Shown here: one piece after another, positions 2,611 to 26,564 of the stretch | How the letters are laid out: each line of letters starts with the position of its first letter | Numbering within the stretch: the first letter of the stretch is position 1 | Virus record (IMG/VR): IMGVR_UViG_3300033153_007969 | Location: 1-27,103 of that record | Source: a virus | DNA length: 27,103 bases | Reading direction: 5' to 3' (one strand) | Translations under genes and position numbers: made by a program | Notes under the pieces: model-generated | What the model was told of the DNA's origin: nothing | The model's input: only the letters and a program-made list of their open reading frames with translations | Databases searched by the model: none

Positions 2611-4248
2611 ATGACGTTAAATACAAAAGAACTAGCTAAACTGGCAGTACGTTTAGAACATGAAGGGCGTTCTGAAAATGCGGCTGAGCTTAATGACATG
2701 ATTAAACAGCTAGCAGAGCCTGTAGAGATGGGCATTGCGCCTGACGTTTCAGAAGAGGGGCCAGTTGAAATGGGCTCTGAGGAACTATTAAGTGAACTCG
2801 ACAGCATAAAAATTGAAATTGCTACCGACAAAGATGCCCCAGGTTTAAAGGAAAAAGTTCAAAACCTTATTTCCCAGCTAGAAGAATTTGTTGGCGATCT
2901 TGTTGGTGGGCCACCAAGCGGCGCGGTTCCTGTTGGCGCAGTAGCTTCTAAAATTATCAGCCTTACTGACGCATTAGATTCTTGTGGTTGGGACAAAGAG
3001 GCTTCGACATTAGACGGTATGCTACAGAAGATGGCGGTTACAATGGTAGAAGATCCTGATGAAGAGTTTAAAAAGAAACTACAAGAAGAGGGCTATTCTC
3101 CAGACACAAAGGTTTATGTTGGGAAACCCGACGAACAAATTGGCGAAGGCGATATTGTAATGCCAGGAAAAGAAGTAGATGGTCCATCTTTGGACAGCGG
3201 TATAGAATCTAAGCTTGTCGAGCTTGCCAGTCAGGGCTGGGATATATTTGGGCCAGGAGACTTAAATAAATGGCTCGATATAAAGGGCTATAAAAAAATG
3301 AGCGATATGCCGGAAGAAGAAGTGGCTAAGATTCAGGAAGAGATGGATAAGGGTGCATCCGTAAAGCGAGCCGATGTAGACTCCGACTTACCTGGCGTGA
3401 TGGACTTGGAAAGTGAAGACAGAGTCCAACCGGAACAGGAAGCTGGGAATCTACCTGAACATCAGCCAGGCGCATTAGATCTAGATAGCCCACATCGCAT
3501 TAACCCAGAAGAAATAAAACAAGAGCTTGACCTATTTTTAACAAACCCAGAAGAAGCGGCAGGAGAGAATCTTCTGTCCAAGATTCAGCAGCTTATTAAT
3601 GAACAGGTCGTTGAACTTCCTGGCGGAACCGATGAAGAGGCCGTCAACTCTCTTGAACAAGTTGAAAAAGCAAAGGGTGTCACATGGTCTACACGTAAAG
3701 AAGTATTCACTAAGCTGGCAGACCTTGCAGACAGATTAGATGATATCGGAGCTACTGACGAAGCAAATTTGGTAGACCAATTTATCGAGGTTCATGCTAC
3801 AGACTTAGAGTATAAGGGTGAGGCCGACACAGAACAAAGCAAGAGATATGATGACAAGCATCACCACTCATTACAAGTTCGTGAGCCAAAGACCAAGCAA
3901 GAACGGGTAGATCGTGAGGGACGCGACAAGCATCACGTTCATACATATGAGAACCAAGAGAGAGACACACAGCACTATAATAAAGGCAAAGAGAATAAGA
4001 AGGAAGCCTCGTTAAGCACTAGATATTGCCCTGAGCATATTGGCGTGTCGATGGGTAGAGTTGGCGAAAACACTTACCAATGCCCATTGTGCCGTGAAGT
4101 ATATAATTGGGAAACCGGCTGGTCTGATCATGATGGTAAAGAACATCCAGGCGGCTCAGTAGCTGCGCAGACACCAGATTCATCTGGCTATGATATTCCT
4201 CATAGAATATTTGACAGCAGAGAAAACATATCTAATAGGGTAAACTAA
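2611..4248 (+). CDS. Acidic multi-hairpin protein with C-terminal zinc ribbon
   Basis: A 545-residue acidic protein of unknown function, preceded by AAGGAG. It carries three copies of the recurrent helical hairpin: residues 5-36, 112-142 and 363-396 (for example LADLADRLDDIGATDEANLV). Between them lie acidic, Pro-containing linkers, including KGASVKRADVDSD (248-258), a KRA-type junction. Residues 400-460 are very rich in His, Lys and Asp. The C terminus holds a likely zinc ribbon, C473-P-E-H476 ... C491-P-L-C494, directly preceded by ASLSTR (466-471), another form of the h-S-x-R motif. The layout is modular: hairpin tags, linkers and a small metal-binding domain. It could be a scaffold, an adaptor or a processed virion precursor. 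Confidence 0.85.
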   Translation: MTLNTKELAKLAVRLEHEGRSENAAELNDMIKQLAEPVEMGIAPDVSEEGPVEMGSEELLSELDSIKIEIATDKDAPGLKEKVQNLISQLEEFVGDLVGGPPSGAVPVGAVASKIISLTDALDSCGWDKEASTLDGMLQKMAVTMVEDPDEEFKKKLQEEGYSPDTKVYVGKPDEQIGEGDIVMPGKEVDGPSLDSGIESKLVELASQGWDIFGPGDLNKWLDIKGYKKMSDMPEEEVAKIQEEMDKGASVKRADVDSDLPGVMDLESEDRVQPEQEAGNLPEHQPGALDLDSPHRINPEEIKQELDLFLTNPEEAAGENLLSKIQQLINEQVVELPGGTDEEAVNSLEQVEKAKGVTWSTRKEVFTKLADLADRLDDIGATDEANLVDQFIEVHATDLEYKGEADTEQSKRYDDKHHHSLQVREPKTKQERVDREGRDKHHVHTYENQERDTQHYNKGKENKKEASLSTRYCPEHIGVSMGRVGENTYQCPLCREVYNWETGWSDHDGKEHPGGSVAAQTPDSSGYDIPHRIFDSRENISNRVN

Positions 4249-4249
4249 T

Positions 4250-5140
4250 ATGAATAAGATGTTAGATGAGTTAATCATGCTTGCTGACATTTTAGATGTT
4301 GGTGGGCTCAAGTGCGAAGCAGCCGAACTTGACGACATCATTAAAGAGGGGTCGACGGTAAGGCCAGTAGTCCAAAGTTTTGTAGAAAGTTTGACACAAA
4401 AGATTCGCGAAAACGAAAAAATTAGCCCAGAAATGTCAGCGGAATTTATTAAAGAGATAAATGATTTAGCTGAGACTGGTTTTAGAACTCTTGATGAAGG
4501 TGATATAGAATCAATGAATATGCAAGAGAATATAATTCCTGAGAACATTGCCGGCACGGTTGATAGTATTAAGGAAGTATATAAAGGTTTAGAATCATCG
4601 CCAGATAATGCAGATCTGTTGCGTGAGTTACATAAATATATACCTGGACTAGCAAATAGTGTGCGCTCACTAGATATCCTAATAAATGGTTCAAGGCCAA
4701 ATGATCAAGCGCTAGCAACGAAAATATTAGACAAGTTGGGTGATAAATTTAATGAAGCTAAAGGAATATTGACAGACTACCATAATAGATTTGGTGTGAG
4801 CAAAGAAGAAATTGAAAAAGGTATTCCTCTAATAATTGAGCGGGCCCAAATGCTAGGCGCAAAGATTCAGACAACCATTAGAGAAAAAAGGCAGCTTGAA
4901 GAATTAATAGTTTCCCCAGGTCAAGAAACAACTAGAAGCGATGATATGCAAAAGATTGATGGAGAGCTGGGACAGATACGTATATATGTAGATTCTGTTA
5001 GAAAACACTCGACCGAAATATTAAAAAGCATTGATATGCTAAGCGTAGTCGAACCAGAATATGTTAAGCAGCTTAAAGAAACATTCGGTGAAGGTTGGGC
5101 AATACTCGAAAGAGCTAAAGATATGGAGTTAAAGCTGTGA
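4250..5140 (+). CDS. Helical protein with N-terminal hairpin motif
   Basis: A 296-residue, almost entirely helical protein that begins with the hairpin motif (residues 4-33, LIMLADILDVGGLKCEAAEL). Long heptad-like stretches follow, for example around residues 120-290 (EKRQLEELIV, DGELGQIRIYVDSVRKHSTEILKSID shortened here), suggesting coiled coils. The start lies one base after the previous stop and the end overlaps the next gene's GTG start by three bases (GTGA), so the three genes are translationally coupled. The ribosome binding site is weak (AGGG). The function is unknown; an assembly or scaffold role would fit its form. Confidence 0.8.
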   Translation: MNKMLDELIMLADILDVGGLKCEAAELDDIIKEGSTVRPVVQSFVESLTQKIRENEKISPEMSAEFIKEINDLAETGFRTLDEGDIESMNMQENIIPENIAGTVDSIKEVYKGLESSPDNADLLRELHKYIPGLANSVRSLDILINGSRPNDQALATKILDKLGDKFNEAKGILTDYHNRFGVSKEEIEKGIPLIIERAQMLGAKIQTTIREKRQLEELIVSPGQETTRSDDMQKIDGELGQIRIYVDSVRKHSTEILKSIDMLSVVEPEYVKQLKETFGEGWAILERAKDMELKL

Positions 5141-7324: not shown

Positions 7325-8092
7325 ATGAAAATTGATGATCTACTATCTAAAATAGACGATATAGCTCGTGCTTCCAACATAAGCACGCCGTTTATTGTTG
7401 GTGGTGTTCCAAGAGACCGTATATTAGGAAAGCGCAGTGGAAAGGCAGATGTAAACGACATAGACCTTACAACTGGCGGGAAAGACTCGCTAGCTTTTGC
7501 AGAGGCGGTTAATAAGTCTTTGCCGAACAGCAACTATAGAACATATGACGATGGACATGCATCAATTGATTTTATGGGAATCCATTTAGATTTTTCTAGC
7601 AACTTTGTAGCGCCTGGTGTTGAGAAAGCGTTAGCTAAGATGGGGATTAAAGATTTAGATTCTATGAAGCTTGAGCTTTATAGTAGAGATTTTACCATGA
7701 ATACTTTATTAGAAAGCTTGGATTTTAAATCTATATATGATCTAACTGGAGAGGGAATTGGCGATATCCAGGCTGGACTAATTAGGTGCCCAATTGACCC
7801 TGAGATTTCGATAGGTGTAGACCCACGAAGAATTTTGAGAGCAATTAAATTTGCTGTACGTTTTGGGTTTAAAATTGATGATGGCCTTAAGGCAGCTATG
7901 ATGAACCATCGCAAAAAGATACAAACCCTTCCTGTTAAGTTTGTGCAAGACAAGATGAATGAGATTGTTAGAATAGATGATGACCAAGGCGTAGAGATGC
8001 TAATAGAATATAAACTGTTGCCTCTTGTTCAAATTACAAAAACGATTTCAGACATATTAATACAACGAAGACAATTAGCGAGGGCCCTATAA
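7325..8092 (+). CDS. tRNA nucleotidyltransferase / poly(A) polymerase-type protein
   Basis: A 255-residue member of the class II CCA-adding enzyme and poly(A) polymerase head family. Visible motifs: G26-G27-V-P-R30-D31 followed by D45-I-D47, the metal-binding pair; S-R121-D122-F-T-M-N, the RRDFTxN motif that sets ribose and strand contacts; and D166-P-R-R-I-L-R-A-I-K-F-A-V-R-F-G-F, the nucleotide-selecting helix region. It stops after the neck, with no HD domain and little body or tail, so it is much shorter than cellular CCA enzymes (about 400 residues). It may add nucleotides to RNA 3' ends, but its substrate is unknown. A second, complete copy of the fold is inside the giant protein at 16077. 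It ends in a one-base TAATG overlap with the next gene. Confidence 0.85.
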   Translation: MKIDDLLSKIDDIARASNISTPFIVGGVPRDRILGKRSGKADVNDIDLTTGGKDSLAFAEAVNKSLPNSNYRTYDDGHASIDFMGIHLDFSSNFVAPGVEKALAKMGIKDLDSMKLELYSRDFTMNTLLESLDFKSIYDLTGEGIGDIQAGLIRCPIDPEISIGVDPRRILRAIKFAVRFGFKIDDGLKAAMMNHRKKIQTLPVKFVQDKMNEIVRIDDDQGVEMLIEYKLLPLVQITKTISDILIQRRQLARAL

Positions 8093-8808
8093 TGAACAGA
8101 CCGCTTTCTAAAAGAGCACAAGATGGCATGTCTGGGACAAACACTGTCCAGAACATACAAAGCCTTAAGGGCGAGCTTGGCAAATTAGGACCCATGATAC
8201 AAAATTTACCAGCCCAATTGGAAGCTGTTAATAAATTGGTATCTGATATTGAGGTACAAGTACAATCTTTAGAACAAATGCGAGCCAATGTTGTAAAACA
8301 ACAGGCTGAAATGAAGACACAAACGCAAGAGGCCGGGCAAGCAGCCCAGGCAGATGATGGCGCTAATCAAGACGCAAGAGATTTTTGGAAAGCTGTACAA
8401 AATGTAGCCGGAAAAGGAATGGCGACGCTCGAAAAGTTTTTTGGCAAAGAATGGAAAGATGAGGGAACCGAAAATTCAGTTGCTGGTGTGCGTGGGTCAG
8501 AAGATTATGACATATCAAAGAGGGCCAAAGACGAGAACAAGCTGAAGGGCGGAAAGGGAGACAAAGTTCCAGAAGCCAAGGTAAATAAAAAGCAATTAGA
8601 CATGGGGCAAAAGGTAGAAATGGAACATACAGATGATCCAGAGATTGCCAGAGAAATAGCAAGAGACCATTTGGCAGAAGAATTAGAAGAAGGTAGGGAA
8701 AAAGAAGACCACAAATATTATACTAATTTAAAGAAAATACATGAGGACAAGTGCAGTGATGGTGTCCCTGCATTTTGGCGTAAAAATCTAGATTATGGGA
8801 GCCACTAA
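8092..8808 (+). CDS. Two-junction protein with DUF5661-like C-terminal domain
   Basis: 238 residues with two exact SKRA motifs: L5-S-K-R-A9 near the N terminus and I141-S-K-R-A145 in the middle. Between them (10-135) is a coiled coil rich in Q, L and K (LEAVNKLVSDIEVQVQSLEQ). After the second motif, residues 163-220 (QLDMGQKVEMEHTDDPEIAR, REIARDHLAEE, DHKYYTNLKKIHED) match my memory of the small phage domain DUF5661. If SKRA is a cleavage site, the gene yields a short leader, a coiled-coil piece and the DUF5661 piece. It is coupled on both sides by one-base TAATG overlaps. The biochemical function of DUF5661 is not known to me. Confidence 0.85.
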   Translation: MNRPLSKRAQDGMSGTNTVQNIQSLKGELGKLGPMIQNLPAQLEAVNKLVSDIEVQVQSLEQMRANVVKQQAEMKTQTQEAGQAAQADDGANQDARDFWKAVQNVAGKGMATLEKFFGKEWKDEGTENSVAGVRGSEDYDISKRAKDENKLKGGKGDKVPEAKVNKKQLDMGQKVEMEHTDDPEIAREIARDHLAEELEEGREKEDHKYYTNLKKIHEDKCSDGVPAFWRKNLDYGSH

Positions 8809-10653: not shown

Positions 10654-11241
10654 ATGACAACAGTATCTCGAAACAATATATACGTCAGGGATGAACGCGG
10701 CGGAGATTGGTTTAATGAATTTTTAGAGTCATTTGCCAATGATAAGCCATCGAGTGTCCAAGATGTATTAGAAGCAATCAACAATAAAAGAACCGAGACT
10801 GTTGAAAGTGTTGTACAAAGTTATCGTGAACAGGTCGGCCTAGATATTTTAAGTTCAACAGAAGAAGAAAAACGAACCACAGTTAAGAAAGCAAGCACTA
10901 ATTTTAGGCCATTGTCAATACGACATGCTGAAGAAGCGCCTTCAGTTGTTCAAATGATTAAAGATGATCCTAAAGTAAATGAAGCGGTTGAAAGCCATTG
11001 TGAACATAGCGGTGGAACCAAAAATATACATACACTGATACATTTCCTACGCGACCTATTGGGCAAAGATGTGAGTTTCTCTGATGAGGAACTTAAAGAA
11101 TATTTAGAGGAACGCAAAATGCGCTATAAAGAAGAAGCGCCGGATAAGGGTTCTGAAAATGTCGGCAGAATCGGGATTGACTCTAAAGAAGATCACGACG
11201 ATGATATGGCCGATTACATGAGATATGACGGAAGCAAATAA
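10654..11241 (+). CDS. Unidentified 195-residue protein with junction motif
   Basis: Preceded by AAGGGG with suitable spacing. Residues 1-75 are helical and charged. Residues 77-92 (VKKASTNFRPLSIRHA) contain both a KKAS and an LSIR form of the recurrent linker motifs. Residues 96-155 form a separate small helical domain (SHCEHSGGTKNIHTLIHFLR then DVSFSDEELKEYLEERK). The tail is acidic and disordered (DSKEDHDDDMADYM). The order of N-terminal region, motif and small domain matches the modular proteins nearby. Function unknown. Confidence 0.8.
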   Translation: MTTVSRNNIYVRDERGGDWFNEFLESFANDKPSSVQDVLEAINNKRTETVESVVQSYREQVGLDILSSTEEEKRTTVKKASTNFRPLSIRHAEEAPSVVQMIKDDPKVNEAVESHCEHSGGTKNIHTLIHFLRDLLGKDVSFSDEELKEYLEERKMRYKEEAPDKGSENVGRIGIDSKEDHDDDMADYMRYDGSK

Positions 11242-16076: not shown

Positions 16077-19000
16077 ATGACTAAAAAACTAAGTAGCAGG
16101 GTGATTAATTATCCATTGTCTGGACGCGATCCGGGCACATCTGGACATTTGCTTAGCAAACGTGGTGCGCTGTCTATCGAACAGGCAGAAAAAGATCCAT
16201 TTTTGTTTTTTTATCTAGAGCAGTGGAAGACTGCTCCACAAGAAATTACAGAGGCGGCGGCAAAAAGCCTTATGGTAAAGAATTTGCAGTTTTACTTTAA
16301 TTCATATAAGGTTCAAAACATAGACCAAGTATCATATGAAACACAGCTTGAAGCTGCTAGAAAATATTATGTACAATATACTCCACCATGGGTTGATTAT
16401 GCCGAGATAATTAAGGGATATCGTGGTGGCCCTGGCCAGCGCGCTAGTGCCATAGCTGCAGCCGAGGGCGCAGCATATAGATATCCTAGGGAATATTTTT
16501 TAGGCGGCGCGGCTTCATTTATGCCAGAAGAAACATCACAAATAGCCAGAGAGCAGCTTATGTCGCACTTAAAATCGTCACTAGAGTATTTTAAGTTTGG
16601 GTTGTACCAATCTTTGCCACGAGAAACAACTGTTGATATGGCAAGAAAAGTGATATATAACGACCCTGTTGAATTTTTTGACTATAAGCTATATGATGTA
16701 GTTCCAAAAAATATAACTGATGAAGCGGGACAAAGCATAGCACGGCAACTTCCGGGGGCATTTTTCGAGATTAGGATAGATGGCGATTCGCTCATTAAAT
16801 ATTTTCCGCAAGAATTTACTATTTTAGCTGCAGAAACAATGGCTAAACAAGACCCTGATATGTTTTTTGAATTTGGTTTAGATAAACTAGATATTCCTGG
16901 TATAGCGGATATTACTGATTCCGCAAAAATGAGACAGGCGCGTAACTTAGCAAACAGCGACCCGCATAAATTTTTTCATATGAACCTTCAGGAGATTGCC
17001 CCTGACCATTTTACACAAAGGGCTATTTATGGAAAATTAGTTAATGATATGTGGTCTCCTGAGGAAATGCCAGATCAAATTGCTAGGTTTGGTGAACAAC
17101 TGCGTGATGAGAAAGGCGTAGATTACAATATATTTTTAAAGGCACTTAAACTGTTTGGAGAAAATGACCCTACCAAGTATTTTGCATGGGATCTTTTTAC
17201 AATTGTAAAAGAAAACGAGTTTAATCAAAGCCTGGTGACAGCACTTATAAAGCAGTTCGGAGTCAAAAAATATTATTATTTAAGATTACACGAAAAACTT
17301 CCTACTGAAATCACAGCATCAGTGCAACGCCTATTTGAAGATGTTGATCCAACAGATTTTTTCCAGCATGACTATTTTAGCGTAGCTCCAATGGATATTA
17401 CGGTATCAAAAGCACGTGCGTTTGCATCGACAACAAGCGAGCACTATGATTTTCTTGATGCTATAGGATCTATTGTAAATAGTAAAATATATGAATATAT
17501 CCCTAGCGAAATATTAGGGGAAATCGCGCACAGGTTTGCTAAATACTACGGAATCGGACAATATTTAAGAAATGACTTTTCTAAACTTAAGGAAGTTAAA
17601 AATATAACTGACTCGGTTATCAATAGTGATGAAGTATTTGATATAAATCCGGTTGATTTTTTCGAGGATAGGGTTTTTAAAAGCGTTGAGTCTTCAGATG
17701 TATTAACAGCAATGGCAGAAAAACTTGCCACTTTGTGTGAGGAATCGGGACTTAACTCTGGAGTTGCTAATTCTATAGATATAATTTTTGATGACCGTGC
17801 GGTTTATAAAAAGATACCTGTTGATATATTGGTAAGAATCGGAAAAATGTATGCAGAATATATAGGGACTAAAAGATATTTGTCGCGCAATATTTCAAGA
17901 GTGCCAGAACTTCGTGAGGTAACAGAAGAAATTTTGCAGGACCCGACTATATATATGGATGAAGAACTTGGAAACATATACAAAATTAACCAAGATGTTA
18001 CCAAGGATAATTTTGTATCTATAACAGAGTCTCCGTTTCAGTCAGAGCAGAGACCGCTTGGAACTGAAGATCTTACAAGATATGATTTTGCACTTAATAC
18101 GGCTATGATGGGTGAAGAAAATGAAATGCAAAGTGATATATTGAATAATTTATTTCATGAGGCAACATCTGGCGAGGTTCACAATGTTGGACTTCCGGGA
18201 CACACTAAAAGTTTTGCGCTAATTTCATTTCCAAGTCAAGATTCAGTATATTTGGAAGAAATTCAGTCCGACCTACCACCTGTTCTTCACGCACTGGTTG
18301 GCGCAAAAGATAAGGATGGTAACAGGACGGAAAGTTACAGAAAAAAAGATTTCGTTGACAAATACGGAATTGATAGCTTTTCAAAGTTTGTGGGGTTTGC
18401 AAATAAACATGTTAGAGTTTATCCATATGTGTTAATAGGAAAGCTTGCAGAATTTGCCGCGCAAAATGACATAAAAGAAATCAAAATGTTAAATGAAGAG
18501 ACTGTTGTGGATATGGCAGGCATATCAAATAGGAAAAAGGCAAATTGGATATATAACAAGGTTCCTGAGGAGTTAGGTTTTAAACCGTCAGGCCCCGAGA
18601 ATGTAATATATAATGGAGATATGAACGAATTGGCAGCAAAAGCAAAAGAAAGAATTGAAGCTATAGTCGGCAAGAAGATGTCAAAAAGACAGAAGCGAAA
18701 GAACACAGTGGACTTATCTGTTGTTGCCCCGGTAATTAAAAAAATGCTGGGAGACAGGGCGGAAGAGGTAGATATGACTAACAATTTGCCGAGCCTTATG
18801 AAGTCAATACACAAACTAAAACAAGACGGAAAAATTACGAATAAAGAGAATAACCACTTAACAGCATTGATAACAAAACATGTCGTAGCACAACTAGACG
18901 CTTCGATAATTAAAATGGCGGAATTTCATATGGATCATCCGATTAGCAAACGAGCAAAAGTAAAATCTGACAAACCGGCATATAAAGAGAAGAAAAAGAC

Positions 19001-22000
19001 CGACAAGGGATACGTGTGGGTGTATGACGAGAAGCACGTAGAAAAGCGTTGGAAGGAAAAGAAAGACAAGATGAAGAGTCTTGAAAAGAACCTCCAAAAG
19101 GTTAGAAGCAAGTACCAATCAGATCTTACTGCCGAAGATGATAAAACTAGAGCAATTGCAGCCATTGTTGGTATAATGGACGATACCGCTATGCGTATTG
19201 GAAATGAAGACTCCGCAAAGGAAGGCACATTTGGTGCAACCACTTTAAAGGTTAAACACGTTAAAGGTGGAACGGGCAATATGACTTTTGATTTTCCTGG
19301 AAAAGGCGCAATAGAACAGAATGTTGTTTTGAAAAATAACAAGGTAATCAAAGTAATTAGAGACCTAATGAAAGGTAAAAAAGCAAACGACTTTATATTT
19401 GAAATTGATGGAAATAAGATATGGGATCGTGCTGTTAATCGTTATCTAAAAGAATTTGGGATTAGTGCAAAAGATTTGCGCGGATTCCATGCAAATCGTT
19501 TAATGAAAGACATGCTTAAAAAGAAAGATTGGAAAGAGGCACTAGAAACCGTTGCCGACATAGTTGGACACGAGGCGTCTACTTTAAAAAACCAGTATCT
19601 TGACCCAGAGCTTGTAGAAAAACATGAGGGCAAAGATAAGAAAGATGATAAGAAAGAAAAGAAGGCGGCTATAAGTAGTCGTGCAACTGGACAAACAACA
19701 GAGCCTATGCCCTATATACCAGGGTCTGAAGAAGATTTTGATTCGATAAAGCAGCCAATCCAATCGGATCCTAATGATTTGCAAAACATGGTAAAGATGG
19801 TAGATACCAATCTTAATGTTAACAATGCTAAAAGTGCAGTTGTATTTCAAGATCCCAGTGTTCAAAATGCTTGGAGAACAATTGCTCCGTTTTTGCCACC
19901 TGGTTCTATGATAACTAGTGCCTTTAGAGATGATTTTGAACAGGCTAAATTCTTTGTTCAGAAATGGCGATCTTGGGCAAATGGATGGAAACCAAGACAA
20001 GGGTTTTTTGCAAAAGAGCATCCGGAATACGATAGATTTGTAAATCGTATAGAAAGTAAGATAGAAAAAGAGGTACCATTTACCCAACGTGATTATGCCA
20101 GATTTGTCAAGATGAATAATATTATGCGAACGATGGCAAAAGATATTGAAGGATATAAAGAATTTGCCGTTGCTGTTCCAGGCTCATCATATCATGCACA
20201 AGACGCAGCATTTGATGTCACTGGGGCATCGTTAAACAAGATAGTGGGGGCAATAAACTTTGTTGTCCAATCATTCCCTCAACATATACAGCTGCGCCGT
20301 GATCCATTCCTAGAGCCAGAACCACAATCTGCCGTTCATGTGGAACTTAGTCGAGCCGCTGGTGTTCCGGATATGAGCCAATATGTTCCTGTTCTGTATA
20401 AATACTTAGAACAAGAGAACAGGCTTGCATATAACCAGCCAATTACAAAACAAGAGGCGCTATCGTCTCCTATTTCAAAAAGAGCAGAGCTAACACCTGA
20501 GGATGCACAGTGGGTAGAAAAGAACTTAAAAACACTGTCCGGAAGAGCGATTCCTGATGGAGTAGAGGTTGATCAAAAGATTAAAAAGTCATATCGCATA
20601 AGACCAAAGGTTAAACTAAATAGTTTATTGTTTGATGCATGGAGAACGCTTCAGCCGTTTCTGCCTCGTGGCGCAGTTATGACATCAGGGTTCAGAACAC
20701 CCGAAGACCAAAAGCGCATTCTTAATAATTATTGGAAAAAAGCAACTGGTTCACCAGTACCTTCACACCTACAAACTGACCCCAGAGTGTGGCGACAAGT
20801 GTCTAGACTTCTAAGGAGACACCACGGATATATAGTGGGCCCACCACTTACTCCAAATTCATCTAAAAAGAAATTTGGTCACTTTAAAGGCAATTGCCTA
20901 GACATTAGTGGCGCAGATTTATATGATATATCTTCAATTGTAAAAGCTGTTTCTGACCACAAGGATTTGCCGGTTAAATTCCGCAAGCCTTTTGTGGAAC
21001 AAGGAAATAATTGTGTTCATATTGGTGTTGTGAGCGCCACATATGATGAAAGCGCAGTATCTAGCGTGCTGAATGCGACAAATCAACGCGTTGCCTCTAT
21101 TTCAAAAATAGCACAAGAGGAAACATTAGAGAAACAAATCGAGAACATGTATGGCGATTTGGTGATGTCAGACCCTCCTGACGACTTGGTCAAAGAGTTT
21201 GGCGCAGCATTTGATATTGATGCATCGTATGATGAGGACGAAGGCATAGCTGACGGAGAAGATGAACTCATACTGGATATGGGGTTTGGAAAAGAAGACA
21301 TGCGCGGAGACTGGTTTGAAAAATCTCCAATATTCAGATGGCGCGAAGATATACCTAAGTTTGAATTACACGATCTTGAAGAAGCCGCTACAAAAAAGAT
21401 GGCAGAAGAAGATCCAGAAAAGTTTTTCTATCGCGGGCTACATAGGGAATATCCAAAATTAGAAGCACTTGCTTTAGAAAATATGATAGAGGACAATGCA
21501 AAGTTTTTCTTTATCTTCCTGTATCACGAACGCGAAGAAGATTCATTCCAAGATTTGGTAGAAAAAGCTGCCGAAGCGCTATCCTTGCAGGATGCGCGAG
21601 CATTTTTCTATTATCACCTCCATCATAAGTTCCCAGAGTTAGGGCGTGGCGCAATCATACAACTTATTGATACCAACCCAGACACGTTTTTTGATTTAGG
21701 ATTACAAAAAGACTATCCTGATTTGGAGGAAAGTGCTGGTAATGCCAGAAACATCAAAGACCCGAACAAGGTTGAACTAGAACAACCAGAGTGGCTTAAG
21801 AAGGATATAGAAAATCCAATATCGTTACGAGATAGAAATGCAAAAAAGCTGTTTAGTAAGCGTGCGGGCGAGAGCCCAAAAATACAAACAACGCCTGAGG
21901 AAGAGAAGGTGTTTCAGGTTTTAGAAGACACTATAAAACACTTTAGGCTAGGCACAAATGTGCGTGTTGCCGGTGGATGGGTGCGCGACAAGCTTATGGG

Positions 22001-23942
22001 CCTGCAATCTAAGGATATAGACATTGCTATAGACAACATGATGGGCAAGCAATTTGCCGAGTATGTCGGCCAATACGCAAGATCTATGGGTATTGAGGCA
22101 ACAGCCGGAGTAATTCCAGCAAAACCAGAGCAAGGCAAACACCTAGAAACTGCAGTTATTCACATGTTTGGCGAATCAATCGATGTTGTGAACTTGCGGG
22201 ACGAAGAATATGACGAGGAATCAAGAAAACCAGTCGTAACAATTACAGATTCGCCAATGAAAGATGCTTTCAGGCGAGATCTTACAATTAACGCATTGTT
22301 CTATAATATACATACAAAAGAAGTAGAAGACTTTACAGGACAAGGCTTGACGGATATCGAAGATAAAGTTTTGCGCACTCCGCAAACCATTAGTGAAGAA
22401 CAAGAACAAGAGGTAGGTCGACCTATAGATGCGAAGCAAATCTATTTAGATGACCCTCTCAGGGTAATGCGAGCAGTTAGGTTCGCAAATAGATATCCTG
22501 AATTCAAGATTGACCCAGAGATACCTACTGCAGCTAAAGATCCAGAAGTTCAAGAGGCGTTTAGAACAAAAATAACATTCGAACGCAGACAGGATGAGCT
22601 TAAAAAGATTTTTCAGGAGAAGAGAAGTCCTCGTGAAGCTCTAGAGCTTATTAAAGACTGGGGATATCGTTCTGAGATCTTACAGCTTCCAGATCAATAT
22701 TCAGAATGGGAACTTGACCAAAATAATCCACATCATGAGTTTCATGTTTGGGGACATCTTATGGAGGCCCTAGATAATATATATCAGATCACAGAAGGTG
22801 AAGACCTAGATAAGGCAGATCGATATATTTTAAATTGGGCTACGCTGTTACATGATGTTGGGAAACTAGATCCAAACATACAGGGTGCTAAAGAACAGGG
22901 CGACCAGATTATTAATACGTTTCATGGACACGAAAATTCTAGCATAGAGGCTGCACAGCATATATTGGGTAAGCTTAAGGGTACCAAAAGTAAGGATATT
23001 AAACGAGTACAAAGTCTTATTGACTCTGCACGACGTGTAGACTTAGATCCAGAAAAAGCTGCAAACATAAAGGCCAAAACTATACGAAAAATTTTAGAGA
23101 TTACTAAAGATTTTGAGGGAGATTGGCGTAGGGCAATGCAGGTTGCACTTGCTGACGCCGCTGCACACAAGGGTGGGTGGCTCCCAACATTCCCTAGAGA
23201 AGGATATGACCATCTTGTAGGGCAATTTCAGAAAGTTCCACCAGAAACACTAACCCCTTTGATCAGTGGTATGGATTTACAAAACATGTTTGGTCGTAGA
23301 CCAGGCAGGTGGATAGGTCAAATTAATAAAGACCTACAAACATGGCAGACACAAATGGCAACACAGGGCGCTGCCCCTACTGCTGATGATGCAAAGCAAT
23401 TCGTACAAACGTTCGACGCGCAAAACATATACGATGAAAAACGCAAAGAATATAATGAGCCGGTTGTATCTTTGGTTAAAGAGGCTAGTCAGCATGTAAT
23501 ATCAAAACGAGCCGAAGATACTGATATAATATCATTACCCAGTGTGTCCGACATTAATGAAGAACTAGGCAATTTGCCTGGAGCATTTCCACAAAGAGAT
23601 GAAAGAACGTCATCTGGACAACTTGACATTTCAGAGGGCGTTTCGCTACTGTGGAATTATTTTATATATTCTGACGGCACAGCAGGTCCAAGATATGGTG
23701 CTGTGGCAAACCTCCAATATGCTACAGGCGCTCTTTCCCAATATATAAAGGTTTTTTCGTTTACCGGAGGAAGTCAGCAAGAAACTCTAGAACAGCTACA
23801 ATCGTTTCTAATGGATCAAGATCTACACAACAAAATGACACAAATTATAGTGGACAAAGAAAAATCTGAAGAAGATGGTTTGGCCGAGGTTATACCTCTT
23901 TTTGGGAAAAAACTTAGTACACGACATATGGTTAATAGATGA
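16077..23942 (+). CDS. Giant multi-enzyme protein, probable polyprotein
   Basis: One uninterrupted frame of 2621 residues (about 300 kDa), almost 30% of the window. Modules in order: DPxxFF repeats (about 36-630), EEIQSD polyvalent-like region (about 640-955), type IB topoisomerase (about 960-1190), two M15-type peptidase domains (about 1240-1440 and 1500-1660), DPxxFF repeats again (about 1770-1900), CCA-adding nucleotidyltransferase with HD domain (about 1930-2460) and a C-terminal domain (2480-2621). Junction motifs start at S27 (SKRG), S957 (SKRA), S1200 (SSRA), S1467 (SKRA), S1676 (SKIA), S1927 (SKRA) and S2476 (SKRA), each after I, L or F. Polyvalent proteins of phages and conjugative elements are known to fuse many enzymatic domains and are thought to enter the host with the DNA. 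Cleavage at the motifs is inference. Confidence 0.93.
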   Translation: MTKKLSSRVINYPLSGRDPGTSGHLLSKRGALSIEQAEKDPFLFFYLEQWKTAPQEITEAAAKSLMVKNLQFYFNSYKVQNIDQVSYETQLEAARKYYVQYTPPWVDYAEIIKGYRGGPGQRASAIAAAEGAAYRYPREYFLGGAASFMPEETSQIAREQLMSHLKSSLEYFKFGLYQSLPRETTVDMARKVIYNDPVEFFDYKLYDVVPKNITDEAGQSIARQLPGAFFEIRIDGDSLIKYFPQEFTILAAETMAKQDPDMFFEFGLDKLDIPGIADITDSAKMRQARNLANSDPHKFFHMNLQEIAPDHFTQRAIYGKLVNDMWSPEEMPDQIARFGEQLRDEKGVDYNIFLKALKLFGENDPTKYFAWDLFTIVKENEFNQSLVTALIKQFGVKKYYYLRLHEKLPTEITASVQRLFEDVDPTDFFQHDYFSVAPMDITVSKARAFASTTSEHYDFLDAIGSIVNSKIYEYIPSEILGEIAHRFAKYYGIGQYLRNDFSKLKEVKNITDSVINSDEVFDINPVDFFEDRVFKSVESSDVLTAMAEKLATLCEESGLNSGVANSIDIIFDDRAVYKKIPVDILVRIGKMYAEYIGTKRYLSRNISRVPELREVTEEILQDPTIYMDEELGNIYKINQDVTKDNFVSITESPFQSEQRPLGTEDLTRYDFALNTAMMGEENEMQSDILNNLFHEATSGEVHNVGLPGHTKSFALISFPSQDSVYLEEIQSDLPPVLHALVGAKDKDGNRTESYRKKDFVDKYGIDSFSKFVGFANKHVRVYPYVLIGKLAEFAAQNDIKEIKMLNEETVVDMAGISNRKKANWIYNKVPEELGFKPSGPENVIYNGDMNELAAKAKERIEAIVGKKMSKRQKRKNTVDLSVVAPVIKKMLGDRAEEVDMTNNLPSLMKSIHKLKQDGKITNKENNHLTALITKHVVAQLDASIIKMAEFHMDHPISKRAKVKSDKPAYKEKKKTDKGYVWVYDEKHVEKRWKEKKDKMKSLEKNLQKVRSKYQSDLTAEDDKTRAIAAIVGIMDDTAMRIGNEDSAKEGTFGATTLKVKHVKGGTGNMTFDFPGKGAIEQNVVLKNNKVIKVIRDLMKGKKANDFIFEIDGNKIWDRAVNRYLKEFGISAKDLRGFHANRLMKDMLKKKDWKEALETVADIVGHEASTLKNQYLDPELVEKHEGKDKKDDKKEKKAAISSRATGQTTEPMPYIPGSEEDFDSIKQPIQSDPNDLQNMVKMVDTNLNVNNAKSAVVFQDPSVQNAWRTIAPFLPPGSMITSAFRDDFEQAKFFVQKWRSWANGWKPRQGFFAKEHPEYDRFVNRIESKIEKEVPFTQRDYARFVKMNNIMRTMAKDIEGYKEFAVAVPGSSYHAQDAAFDVTGASLNKIVGAINFVVQSFPQHIQLRRDPFLEPEPQSAVHVELSRAAGVPDMSQYVPVLYKYLEQENRLAYNQPITKQEALSSPISKRAELTPEDAQWVEKNLKTLSGRAIPDGVEVDQKIKKSYRIRPKVKLNSLLFDAWRTLQPFLPRGAVMTSGFRTPEDQKRILNNYWKKATGSPVPSHLQTDPRVWRQVSRLLRRHHGYIVGPPLTPNSSKKKFGHFKGNCLDISGADLYDISSIVKAVSDHKDLPVKFRKPFVEQGNNCVHIGVVSATYDESAVSSVLNATNQRVASISKIAQEETLEKQIENMYGDLVMSDPPDDLVKEFGAAFDIDASYDEDEGIADGEDELILDMGFGKEDMRGDWFEKSPIFRWREDIPKFELHDLEEAATKKMAEEDPEKFFYRGLHREYPKLEALALENMIEDNAKFFFIFLYHEREEDSFQDLVEKAAEALSLQDARAFFYYHLHHKFPELGRGAIIQLIDTNPDTFFDLGLQKDYPDLEESAGNARNIKDPNKVELEQPEWLKKDIENPISLRDRNAKKLFSKRAGESPKIQTTPEEEKVFQVLEDTIKHFRLGTNVRVAGGWVRDKLMGLQSKDIDIAIDNMMGKQFAEYVGQYARSMGIEATAGVIPAKPEQGKHLETAVIHMFGESIDVVNLRDEEYDEESRKPVVTITDSPMKDAFRRDLTINALFYNIHTKEVEDFTGQGLTDIEDKVLRTPQTISEEQEQEVGRPIDAKQIYLDDPLRVMRAVRFANRYPEFKIDPEIPTAAKDPEVQEAFRTKITFERRQDELKKIFQEKRSPREALELIKDWGYRSEILQLPDQYSEWELDQNNPHHEFHVWGHLMEALDNIYQITEGEDLDKADRYILNWATLLHDVGKLDPNIQGAKEQGDQIINTFHGHENSSIEAAQHILGKLKGTKSKDIKRVQSLIDSARRVDLDPEKAANIKAKTIRKILEITKDFEGDWRRAMQVALADAAAHKGGWLPTFPREGYDHLVGQFQKVPPETLTPLISGMDLQNMFGRRPGRWIGQINKDLQTWQTQMATQGAAPTADDAKQFVQTFDAQNIYDEKRKEYNEPVVSLVKEASQHVISKRAEDTDIISLPSVSDINEELGNLPGAFPQRDERTSSGQLDISEGVSLLWNYFIYSDGTAGPRYGAVANLQYATGALSQYIKVFSFTGGSQQETLEQLQSFLMDQDLHNKMTQIIVDKEKSEEDGLAEVIPLFGKKLSTRHMVNR
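16182..17960 (+). other. DPxxFF tandem repeats, block 1 of giant protein
   Basis: At least nine repeats of about 35-50 residues carry the core (D/N)PxxFFxxxLxxxxP followed by a helix rich in Ala and Ile. Examples: NDPVEFFDYKLYDVVP, KQDPDMFFEFGLDKLD, NSDPHKFFHMNLQEIAP, DVDPTDFFQHDYFSVAP, INPVDFFEDRVF. Some copies have lost the DP or one Phe. The pattern suggests a helical solenoid used for binding. I know no named family for it. Confidence 0.75.
17990..18900 (+). other. EEIQSD polyvalent-like region of giant protein
   Basis: LEEIQSD at residues 726-732 is followed, after a variable stretch, by VRVYPYVLIGKLAEFAAQND and IKEIKMLNEETVV. This order resembles the EEIQSDW module of phage and plasmid polyvalent proteins, where the motif precedes an alpha/beta segment with a conserved Ala-rich helix. 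The Trp that often follows the motif is missing. The region 820-955 is basic and helical. Assignment is from memory and moderate. Confidence 0.5.
18945..19650 (+). other. Type IB DNA topoisomerase domain of giant protein
   Basis: All five residues of the type IB active site are visible: R1040 (AMRIGNED), K1076 (FPGKG), R1135 (DLRGFHANR), H1165 (IVGHEAS) and the nucleophile Y1174 (NQYLDP). The spacing H to Y is 9, as in the vaccinia enzyme, and R to K is 36 against 37 there. Such enzymes relax supercoils through a 3'-phosphotyrosyl bond without ATP or metal. It begins right after SKRA (957-960) with a basic helix and ends in a Lys/Asp-rich tail before SSRA (1200-1203). Confidence 0.9.
19800..20400 (+). 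other. M15-type peptidase domain 1 of giant protein
   Basis: ITSAFRD followed by S-Y-H1373-A-Q-D-A-A-F-D1380 and A-V-H1421-V-E-L gives the His, Asp, His zinc set of the D-Ala-D-Ala carboxypeptidase/endolysin (M15) fold, pattern SxHxxGxAxD ... HxE. The usual Gly in the motif is Asp. An insertion of about 90 residues sits between the FRD and SYH parts. A role in cutting peptidoglycan peptides during entry would fit, but protein substrates are also possible. Confidence 0.75.
20580..21060 (+). other. M15-type peptidase domain 2 of giant protein
   Basis: It repeats the layout of domain 1: DAWRTLQPFLPRG (compare NAWRTIAPFLPPG), MTSGFRTPEDQ, G-H1602-F-K-G-N-C-L-D1609 and C-V-H1648-I-G-V. The zinc residues are present, but the Glu after the last His (HxE) is Gly, so activity is uncertain. 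The two domains arose by duplication and have diverged strongly. It is bounded by SKRA (1467) and SKIA (1676). Confidence 0.7.
21380..21770 (+). other. DPxxFF tandem repeats, block 2 of giant protein
   Basis: Four closely spaced repeats of about 30 residues: EEDPEKFFYRGLHREYP, EDNAKFFFIFLYHERE, LQDARAFFYYHLHHKFP and DTNPDTFFDLGLQKDYP, each followed by a short Leu/Ala helix. These copies are more regular than those of block 1, which is over 1000 residues away in the same protein. They are preceded by an acidic segment. Confidence 0.75.
21890..23480 (+). other. CCA-adding nucleotidyltransferase plus HD domain
   Basis: A complete class II nucleotidyltransferase: G1966-G-W-V-R-D with D1980-I-D1982 (metal site), R2066-R-D-L-T-I-N-A-L, DDPLRVMRAVRFANRY and ERRQDELKKIF. 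An HD domain follows with HHEFHVWGH, L-L-H2259-D2260-V-G-K and HGHE, the arrangement of bacterial CCA enzymes that also remove 2',3'-cyclic phosphates. It likely adds or repairs RNA 3' ends. It is more complete than the stand-alone relative at 7325. Confidence 0.9.
23511..23939 (+). other. C-terminal domain of giant protein
   Basis: The last 143 residues, after SKRA at 2476-2479, form a separate small domain (VSLLWNYFIYSDGTAGPRYG, LQYATGALSQYIKVFSF) and end with KLSTRHMVNR, another h-S-x-R sequence. No family recognised. Confidence 0.55.
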
Positions 23943-24363: not shown

Positions 24364-24645
24364 ATGCTTATTACATTAGTTAAAATTGCCAACAAATTAG
24401 ATTCCCTTGGAGAACACGGGTTGGCTACAGAACTCGATACAGTTATACAAGAGTTAGCCGCTTATGCTGAAAAAAGCCGAGACAAGCTGTTAGATGACTT
24501 AAAAGAGGTTACTAATAGATTAGAAGATGACAAGACCTCGCCAGAAAGACTCAAAGAGCTTAATGAGGTTAGGGAAAATATCGAAAAAGATCTTGCGGTT
24601 TTAGATGACGAAGAGGAGAGTAACAATGATGAATGCAGTAGCTAA
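24364..24645 (+). CDS. Hairpin-motif protein, coiled coil
   Basis: 93 residues; strong ribosome binding site (TAGGAG). The first 31 residues are one of the best copies of the recurrent hairpin (VKIANKLDSLGEHGLATELD). A charged coiled coil follows (DKLLDDLKEVTNRLEDDK) and an acidic Ser/Asn tail. Its 3' end overlaps the next gene by 20 bases, so the two are coupled. It is essentially a hairpin tag plus a helix; no enzymatic motif. Confidence 0.8.
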   Translation: MLITLVKIANKLDSLGEHGLATELDTVIQELAAYAEKSRDKLLDDLKEVTNRLEDDKTSPERLKELNEVRENIEKDLAVLDDEEESNNDECSS

Positions 24646-24850
24646 ACTATACAAATTAGCATATGTGCTTGACAAAAAGAGTATGTTTGACGAGGCACGT
24701 GAAATTGAAAGAGTTATGGAAGCTATGGCTCAGCGTATGGGCATTAAACTAGAAGACATGGTTGCTTTGGCTGATCATTTTGACCAAGTTGGCGAAACAG
24801 TTTTGGCTGACAAGTTTGACCAAATGGCCAAAGAGGCAAAAAAAAAATAA
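24626..24850 (+). CDS. Double hairpin-motif protein, likely frameshifted
   Basis: 74 residues from ATG 24626, chosen because AGGAG (24614-24618) is 7 bases upstream; ATG 24605 has no such site. The protein is two hairpin motifs in a row: about 3-34 (LYKLAYVLDKKSMFDEAREI) and 42-72 (MVALADHFDQVGETVLADKF). It ends AKKK at TAA 24848, immediately after ten A residues. The -1 frame continues open for 200 bases with protein-like sequence (see next entries), so the real product may be a fusion of about 140 residues. Confidence 0.8.
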   Translation: MMNAVAKLYKLAYVLDKKSMFDEAREIERVMEAMAQRMGIKLEDMVALADHFDQVGETVLADKFDQMAKEAKKK

Positions 24851-25065: not shown

Positions 25066-25662
25066 ATGAGTACTACAACAATAGGAACATATGGGTTTAA
25101 GAAAACTGCTGCTGAGATCCCGCCCGAAGCGGCCGAGAAACTAAAGAAAATGATCAGAGAAATGGATGAGGAAGAAGGTCATGTTGTGCCTCCAGAATTT
25201 GAAGAGGGGCCGCCAGAGCAAGAACAGGCTAGGGACCTTCATGAGGCATTAACAATGAAAACCAAGCCTCGTACAGAAACTCCTATGGATCCAAAAGAGA
25301 TCGAAGAAGGATACAGGCAGGTTGGCGAAGAAGAGTGGGACGAGCGCCATGGCGGAGTATCTGTAGAAGAACATGATAAGCTTGAGTGGCCAGCAAAAGG
25401 AATAGATGCCGATTGGCTTGAACAAAAAGAGAAGGGTGTAACTAACCCACCAGAAGACCAAGAAATGTTTTTACCAGAAGGCCCACGCGGCGAATTTGAA
25501 GAAGCTGGCGAAACATATGAGGAAGAAGATGATTGGAGAAATTGGATGGAAAGACGCAAGGCAGAAATGAAATCCAAGCTGATCAAAATGGCTAATAAAC
25601 TAGACGGTAAGGGCTTATATGATGAAGCCAATGCTATCGATGAAATTATCAAGGGACTATGA
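25066..25662 (+). CDS. Acidic protein with C-terminal hairpin motif
   Basis: 198 residues, very rich in Glu, Asp and Pro, probably disordered for residues 30-165. The N terminus has FKKTAAE (11-17), a Lys-x-Ala junction. The last 31 residues are an excellent copy of the helical hairpin (LIKMANKLDGKGLYDEANAI), here at the C terminus, whereas in the genes at 24364 and 26578 it is at the N terminus. The stop overlaps the next start (ATGA). A tag on an otherwise disordered acidic carrier fits a scaffold or packaged adaptor. Function unknown. Confidence 0.82.
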   Translation: MSTTTIGTYGFKKTAAEIPPEAAEKLKKMIREMDEEEGHVVPPEFEEGPPEQEQARDLHEALTMKTKPRTETPMDPKEIEEGYRQVGEEEWDERHGGVSVEEHDKLEWPAKGIDADWLEQKEKGVTNPPEDQEMFLPEGPRGEFEEAGETYEEEDDWRNWMERRKAEMKSKLIKMANKLDGKGLYDEANAIDEIIKGL

Positions 25663-26564
25663 AACTAATATCGCGCAGGCACAAAGAGGCTTCTAAAGAT
25701 AAGCCTAAAGCCGGAGTTTTTATCACTTTGCCGGATGATTTGGCAAAACAGTTTCCTTTGTTAGGGAAGCATGATGATTCTCCGCCGCATGTGACTGCGC
25801 TATTTATAGGTGAAGTTTTAAAGAAAGATGAAAGCTTACTGCTTAAAACCATTAAAGAGGTAGCAGAATTGCATGAGCCTTTTGTAATGAAGTTGGATGA
25901 GAAGGTAACTTATTTCCCGGCATCAAAACACTCTGATGATTGTAAAATAGCAAAGCTTAAAATCATATCTCCAGAGTTGCATGAGTTTCATAAAGCCTTA
26001 AAAGAAGCTATCGGAAAGGTAGAGATGCATATCGATGATCATTTTTCTGGCTATAAGCCTCACGTAACTCTGTCTTATATGCCTCCACCTAGGAAAACAT
26101 ATGATCGAGATGTCCCTAGTGGTTCTTGGGTTACTGAAGAAATACATATATGGAATGGAGATAAGAAAAACGTAGTAAGGCTTGGTAACAAAAAGAAAGC
26201 GTCTCTGTCATGTAGACATAAAAATGCTGGCATTGAACAAACGCAATCTGGAATAGGCATTAGTACTTCTGCACGCAAATACTATAGAGAGATTCACCCG
26301 GAGATGGCCGGGATAATGAATGCAGAATTGAACCAAAGTATAGCCCAGGAATTTGCAAGTGCTAAACCTGAACACAGGTTTAAACTTCGCAGTGGAGAGA
26401 TAGCAGAAATTAGAAGATCCAATTCTTTACTTCTAGTTGCCGCTATTCGTGGTAGAGGAACTGCGTCGGTAAGATATGATGTAATAGTGATTCAACCATC
26501 GTATAAAGAACCATCTGATGAGATAAGGAAAATGCGCTTGCAGCCAGGTTGGGGCGTTGAATAA
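25659..26564 (+). CDS. 2H phosphoesterase-like protein with extra domain
   Basis: 301 residues. The N-terminal domain (about 15-170) has the two His-x-Thr motifs of the 2H phosphoesterase superfamily: PPH44-V-T-A-L and YKPH135-V-T-L-S-Y. These enzymes open or cut 2',3'-cyclic phosphates and related bonds, and act in RNA repair; in phages some degrade cyclic oligonucleotide signals of CBASS defence (Acb1). Residues 181-187 (ASLSCRH) are a form of the h-S-x-R motif and separate it from a C-terminal domain (190-301) of unknown type with RFKLRSGEIAEIRRS and a strand-rich core. It overlaps the previous gene by four bases. The substrate cannot be told from sequence. Confidence 0.8.
   Translation: MKLISRRHKEASKDKPKAGVFITLPDDLAKQFPLLGKHDDSPPHVTALFIGEVLKKDESLLLKTIKEVAELHEPFVMKLDEKVTYFPASKHSDDCKIAKLKIISPELHEFHKALKEAIGKVEMHIDDHFSGYKPHVTLSYMPPPRKTYDRDVPSGSWVTEEIHIWNGDKKNVVRLGNKKKASLSCRHKNAGIEQTQSGIGISTSARKYYREIHPEMAGIMNAELNQSIAQEFASAKPEHRFKLRSGEIAEIRRSNSLLLVAAIRGRGTASVRYDVIVIQPSYKEPSDEIRKMRLQPGWGVE

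Follow-up and report, generated by a model that had tools for sequence, protein, structure and literature searches.

A header sequence shared by the modules of a multi-enzyme phage polyprotein and by stand-alone genes of related phages

Among described systems, polyvalent proteins and capsid-targeting leaders are the closest known to the locus considered here. As the available passages of Iyer et al. 2017 (PMC5512222) present them, polyvalent proteins carry 2 to 15 disparate domains, occur in phages and conjugative elements, are predicted to be packaged and injected, and are likened to the polyproteins of RNA viruses. Capsid-targeting leaders are exemplified by T4, in which the IP propeptides (IPI-III), of 10 to 19 residues, serve in targeting and are cut by gp21, and Alt loses 7 residues (PMC9026906). 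In SPN3US and phiKZ, one prohead protease matures the head proteins, including those that are ejected, and its motif in SPN3US is AXE (PMC10052503).

The window (the whole stretch of DNA that was analysed, 27,103 nucleotides or 27.1 kb from the uncultured virus record IMGVR_UViG_3300033153_007969) contains an ORF of 2,621 uninterrupted codons, 16077-23942 (+), which confirms the single 2,621-residue frame described in a first-pass annotation of the sequence. Unrelated activities are joined in this one polypeptide: a topoisomerase IB, a CCA-type nucleotidyltransferase, an HD domain, and, from weak matches, M15-like peptidases. Polyvalent proteins, as far as the same passages go, and this group have in common 2H phosphoesterases, pol-beta nucleotidyltransferases, peptidases, and wall hydrolases. 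Unlike the polyvalent proteins of those passages, nearly every module here starts with a short header, which has a core of phi-S-K-R-A and a broad form, phi-S-x-R-[A/H/D], and which is common to stand-alone genes. The passages describe no recurrent joint motif and no type IB topoisomerase. A literature search, largely outside subscription journals, found no description of a movable header before nearly every module, fused or free.

The T4 capsid-targeting leader spans 7 to 19 residues, and the header Ser is found at residues 3 to 8 of stand-alone genes. However, the gp21 motif is L/I-x-E, to which phi-S-x-R-A/H/D does not conform, and T4 cargo comes from separate genes, whereas the cargo predicted here is fused in series. 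Relatives resemble T4 in having a head maturation protease gene within the late region where the polyprotein gene lies. The substrates in SPN3US and phiKZ are single proteins with propeptides rather than chains of enzymes. The polyprotein is laid out as follows.

16077..23942, + strand: multi-enzyme polyprotein P0001, 2,621 aa (ORF, domain matches)
16089..16103, + strand: header-like N terminus, MTKKLSSRV (S6, KLSSR); relatives L001 and L012 have MNKKLSKR
16152..16166, + strand: LSKRG header, S27 (motif)
16155..17984, + strand: first DPxxFF-type repeat module (repeat units)
17985..18944, + strand: EEIQSD region (family search without a match)
18930..18932, + strand: ATG in frame before the topoisomerase header (MDHPISKRAKV), resembling the L041 start MHPISKRAKV
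18942..18956, + strand: ISKRA header, S957 (motif, structure model)
18945..19673, + strand: type IB topoisomerase module, conserved Tyr within STLKNQYLDPEL (Pfam, PDB folds)
19671..19685, + strand: ISSRA header, S1200 (motif, structure model)
19674..20474, + strand: M15-like peptidase module 1 (weak profile and PDB matches)
20472..20486, + strand: ISKRA header, S1467 (motif, structure model)
20475..21101, + strand: M15-like peptidase module 2 (weak matches, invariant residues)
21099..21113, + strand: ISKIA, a doubtful header, S1676 (motif variant, predicted helix)
21102..21854, + strand: second DPxxFF-type repeat module (repeat units, clustering)
21819..21833, + strand: ISLRD header, S1916, PISLRD (motif, structure model)
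21852..21866, + strand: FSKRA header, S1927 (motif, structure model)
21855..23501, + strand: CCA/poly-A-type nucleotidyltransferase and HD module (Pfam, PHROG)
23499..23513, + strand: ISKRA header, S2476 (motif, structure model)
23502..23939, + strand: final module, no fold assigned (other place in the chain order in relatives)
23913..23927, + strand: LSTRH, header-like, close to the C terminus, S2614, KLSTRH (motif)

Profile searches bear out most of the domains that the first-pass annotation had named. The topoisomerase IB is matched by Pfam (9e-29), and the top PDB folds are type IB topoisomerases. The nucleotidyltransferase matches the poly-A polymerase/CCA head (6e-26) and the PHROG tRNA nucleotidyltransferase (2e-38); the HD domain has a weak match (4e-4). 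The M15-like domains match VanY weakly (0.026), and in the PDB they find carboxypeptidases (D-Ala-D-Ala, LD or putative; one DacB) at E 0.2-0.35. His/Asp/His and Arg/Gln are invariant across 8 sequences, and from the sequences the two M15-like identities are plausible but weak. The repeat blocks, also named in the annotation, consist of DPxxFF-type units (11 copies seen, 0.4 expected). A second poly-A-polymerase-head-like protein, which is headerless and 30% identical to the nucleotidyltransferase of the polyprotein, is encoded at window positions 7325-8092.

All of the motif sites listed in the first-pass annotation (S27, S957, S1200, S1467, S1676, S1927, and S2476) are present, together with three further header-like copies, S6 (KLSSR), S1916 (PISLRD), and S2614 (KLSTRH). 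From 4,000 residue shuffles of the window polyprotein, 0.011 occurrences of [ILVFM]SKRA are predicted, against 4 observed, and 0.029 of [ILVFM]S[KSTC][RC]A, against 5 observed. Related polyproteins have 3 to 7 copies of [ILVFM]SKRA per chain, compared with 0.006 to 0.014 expected from shuffles. Chance as the origin of the motif is rejected on this test. All 37 of the 37 SKRA copies are encoded by different 15-base sequences, among which Ser codons of both families and each of the six Arg codons occur; selection thus acts on the peptide and not on the DNA, and a DNA-level repeat or recombination site as the source of the motif is likewise rejected on the codon variety.

Alignments of relatives point the same way. 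In the family of the protein encoded at window positions 10654-11241 (10 homologs), which was aligned without reference to the motif, a PLSIRHA header is conserved, the linkers up- and downstream of it are unalignable, and the upstream domain varies. Pairs of orthologous joints agree to 81-100% in their S, R, and A/H residues, whereas identity in the flanks does not exceed 34%; these joints were chosen by the motif, a bias from which the 10654-11241 alignment is free. The header is not invariant. Some joints read SKCA, SKIA, SKEA, or SKLA, making a cut strictly at R|A doubtful; the L001 ortholog of the S1676 site is without the motif; and a few expected joints in relatives are without a clear header. 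Overall, the header is almost certainly a genuine module-level signal.

The first-pass annotation had placed the motif between recognisable domains and not inside them, a reading that burial in folded cores would have contradicted. Two AlphaFold2 models show no such burial for 6 of the 7 copies tested, which lie in predicted low-confidence linkers. In the model of residues 940-1690 (mean pLDDT 65), S957, S1200, and S1467 fall in segments below 50, beside or between folded domains; in that of residues 1676-2490 (mean pLDDT 61), S1916, S1927, and S2476 also fall in segments below 50, S2476 being close to the end of the modelled construct. The exception is S1676, predicted to lie within a helix (pLDDT about 58). 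Because the alignments are thin, and low confidence is also expected from a thin alignment, the models support a linker position rather than prove it. A conserved joint motif in predicted linkers could well be a cleavage signal.

The header also opens separate genes (M-K-x-[IL]-S-K-R-A), including genes for the same modules in unfused form. Across eight related records, a header Ser is found at residues 3 to 8 in 14 of 689 ORFs, compared with 2.0 expected. Separate genes of the window carry headers as well.

2611..4248, + strand: internal header LSTRYC, S469, followed by a Cys-rich module (motif, clustering)
8092..8808, + strand: N-terminal header MNRPLSKRAQ and internal ISKRA, S142 (motif, clustering)
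10654..11241, + strand: internal header PLSIRHA, S88 (homologs; DNA ligase at the joint in some relatives)
25659..26564, + strand: MKLISRRH, 2H phosphoesterase (LigT), LSCRH, and a small domain (domain match, clustering)

At the topoisomerase joint, an in-frame ATG precedes the header in the window, L001, and L015, in L015 with GGAG upstream, and the ATG with its header resembles the gene starts MHPISKRAKV (L041) and MNLLSKRAKV (L014). Together with the N-terminal copies, this indicates that the header belongs to the start of a module and not to the joint. Its presence at the start of stand-alone genes makes it a movable module header, something beyond a linker feature. Cleavage at an N-terminal header would free only about 6 to 8 residues, which suits a capsid-targeting leader, either alongside a pure polyprotein cleavage site or in place of one.

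When viral contigs were scanned, this gene turned up in L001 (2,634 aa), L012 (2,366 aa from its ATG), L041/L042, L014 (1,290 aa), L015, L056, and L058. The header-bearing relatives are all uncultured contigs, and most are fragments. In L041/L042 the chain lies in two frames (865 and 1,406 aa), broken within the nucleotidyltransferase, perhaps through an assembly error. Among the relatives whose contigs include the terminase, it is 71-82% identical to that of the window (59% in L015), yet the content of the polyprotein differs radically. The check proposed in the first-pass annotation, whether the motif is kept at joints while linkers vary, came out in its favor: across seven related contigs the motif still heads the modules, although these differ in kind and in order. 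When the proteins are cut at the header, the modules form clean homology clusters, nearly all of them header-started, in variable order and both fused and unfused.

Individual modules illustrate this shuffling. The last module of the window polyprotein is in mid-chain in L012 and L001. LigT is encoded by its own gene in the window and is internal to the polyprotein in L001, L012, L042, and L014. A small RSGEIAEI-type domain is a header-started stand-alone gene in four phages; in the window it follows LigT, with its header retained. A DNA ligase module precedes the header joint of the 10654-11241 family in L011/L027 and L056; L001 encodes it as a gene of its own, and the window lacks it. The L001 polyprotein has in addition a ligase-D 3'-phosphoesterase, a weak primase-polymerase match, and a 2H phosphoesterase. 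Two neighbouring, header-started paralogous modules in L042 (9306-10205) look by eye like ADP-ribosyltransferases; a PDB sequence search with such a module gave no useful match.

Relatives with terminases of 38-45% identity have, where long enough to judge, no such polyprotein after the portal, and scans of genome contigs for a host or prophage found no relative. In one relative whose terminase is 45% identical, the portal is followed by a gene (L066:4507-5007) with the header-like start MKKISYRNLPP. In a distant phage (L062:5638-6643), a 2H phosphoesterase and the start of a CCA-type nucleotidyltransferase share one ORF after the portal, with LHKRVA at its start and LHKKAT at the joint, which may be a different header. 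By capsid, the nearest named relatives are Bacillus phage G, Virus Rctr197k, and several actinophages. The major head protein is 53.5% identical to gp27 of phage G and the protease is 34% identical to its gp19, but the stretch from portal to protease in phage G contains no polyprotein of this type. Virus Rctr197k has a multidomain frame of 2,176 codons between terminase and portal (L051:16140-22667), in which the SKRA header was not seen. The joints of that frame look rich in R-[RKT]-x-A.

Gene order supports a late head-gene neighbourhood for the polyprotein; in relatives, an assemblin-type head protease gene comes later on that strand. A GpA-type terminase and the portal are directly upstream of the polyprotein in the window, and in the record of L001 the terminase, portal, polyprotein, head maturation protease, and major head protein lie on one strand. 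A 1,265-aa protein of L036 (13309-17106) matches head maturation protease phrog_18299 (1e-12), and the major head protein is found in L037 (phrog_2522, 2e-37). In L042 and in L025/L026 the polyprotein is likewise followed by a homologous protease, whose identity is 72-73% in the case of L042 and L025. The head protease was found via PHROGs; the HK97-type S78 protease model PF04586 had no match in ten related records. Between the protease and capsid genes, the proteins of L037:2280-3728 and L037:3718-4359 are started or divided by headers. SKRA was not found in the major capsid protein (L025:1430-2533), so no known substrate ties the specificity of the protease to the header. The portal of L001 (5336-9577) has 1,413 aa, about twice the size of that of the window, with two intein-looking insertions, and in L037:7573-12467 the major head protein gene is seemingly interrupted, with several homing-endonuclease-like ORFs upstream.

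A zincin metallopeptidase with its own header is a second candidate, besides the head maturation protease, for the predicted processing. A gene of its own encodes it at L038:4237-4758, L023/L024 has a homolog, and in L012, L015, and L058 it forms a module of the polyprotein (HExxH). An embedded zincin is a common theme of polyvalent proteins and is not required; the chains of this group are found with and without it. In one relative only, a trypsin-like protease with a lipoprotein-type signal is encoded near the polyprotein (L026:13550-14260).

The reading of the first-pass annotation, a polyprotein whose pieces are released by one protease and which is possibly virion cargo, is thus supported in part. 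Taken together, these data suggest a mechanism with slightly better than an even chance of being right, a grading that reflects the strong linkage of header signal, cargo, and cleavage: the protein would be a polyvalent cargo polyprotein whose modules are each brought into the head by a header, separated from one another there by the head protease, and passed to the cell along with the DNA. We infer the following steps from the genes. Each enzyme module would bear its own N-terminal header, working like the T4 capsid-targeting leader and bringing the module into the prohead. The head-maturation protease would then cut at the header, splitting the fused chain into separate enzymes inside the head, and the freed enzymes would enter the cell together with the DNA. 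In the window, the cargo would comprise topoisomerase IB, the M15-like peptidases, and the tRNA-end nucleotidyltransferase with HD; in relatives, DNA ligase, ligase-D phosphoesterase, a primase-polymerase-like protein, and 2H phosphoesterase might be added. Their roles could lie in genome repair and topology, wall passage (the M15-like peptidases may act on the wall), and counter-defence. The modules are probably virion cargo, and cleavage at the header is fairly likely. These gradings of header, cargo, cleavage, and combined mechanism are judgements rather than computed values.

A more far-reaching reading, that in a group of tailed phages the five-residue header is a joint packaging and release tag, that header-plus-module cassettes are added, moved, fused, and split, and that the head protease cuts the resulting chain into a set of injected enzymes, is about as likely as not. 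The main competitor of the proposed mechanism, which is unlikely, makes the header a docking motif only, for scaffold, portal, or capsid; the chain would be packaged uncut, with the copies giving avidity, and injected as one long protein like the N4 virion RNA polymerase, which is packaged unprocessed according to the available passages of Iyer et al. (PMC5512222). N-terminal copies a few residues past the start Met would make sense without cleavage, and the motif varies at its x positions in the manner of docking motifs. However, one header per chain would be enough for packaging, yet nearly every fused module has one; the copies are in predicted flexible linkers; and in relatives the late region that holds the polyprotein gene also holds that of a head-maturation protease. 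That the zincin (HELVH) rather than the head protease processes the header is less probable still. Five relatives have the header-bearing zincin as a gene or chain module, and the same passages propose processing of polyvalent proteins by a zincin-like peptidase (PMC5512222), but HExxH is found neither in the window polyprotein nor in other window ORFs (weak evidence, since the window is a 27-kb fragment), and a search of L041/L042 gave only an unconvincing HEIGH.

Two further explanations would give the joints no function in packaging or release. Headers could be relics of gene fusions, former starts of the form M-K-x-I-S-K-R-A that are roleless at internal joints or perhaps act as internal translation starts for some modules. 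The in-frame ATG of the topoisomerase joints (in L015 with its GGAG) fits this, but most internal headers have no ATG nearby, and an identical peptide with varied codons argues for ongoing selection at internal joints, so that the idea appears very improbable. Hardly credible is an ordinary multidomain protein whose joint sequences arose by chance or at a recombination hotspot: the modules are indeed mosaic, but the shuffle test, the lack of a DNA-level repeat, and the retention of the header amid unalignable linkers all speak against it.

If the packaging and release reading is correct, cassettes of header plus module would constitute a modular protein-delivery code in a DNA phage. Because the header travels with the module, fused or unfused, it makes testable how the parts of supposedly injected polyvalent proteins are packaged and freed. 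From it follow predictions of the phage proteins that serve as virion cargo, of the sites at which these are cut, and of the packaging of a foreign protein placed behind it. It could also serve as a search signature for unrecognised cargo, and it would be a candidate for a tag with which enzymes are loaded into phage heads.

The window has six copies (0.02 expected) of a recurrent helical-hairpin-like motif, LxxLAxxLDxxGxxxEAxxLDxII. Its window sites are in 2611-4248, 4250-5140, 24364-24645, 24605-24850, and 25066-25662; it is also found in L035-L037 and L025, and in the record of L001 it is nearly all within the head-gene region. It is possibly a second common tag of virion proteins. In L026:15231-15629, a small protein combines this hairpin motif with a domain that by eye resembles a RelE/ParE toxin.
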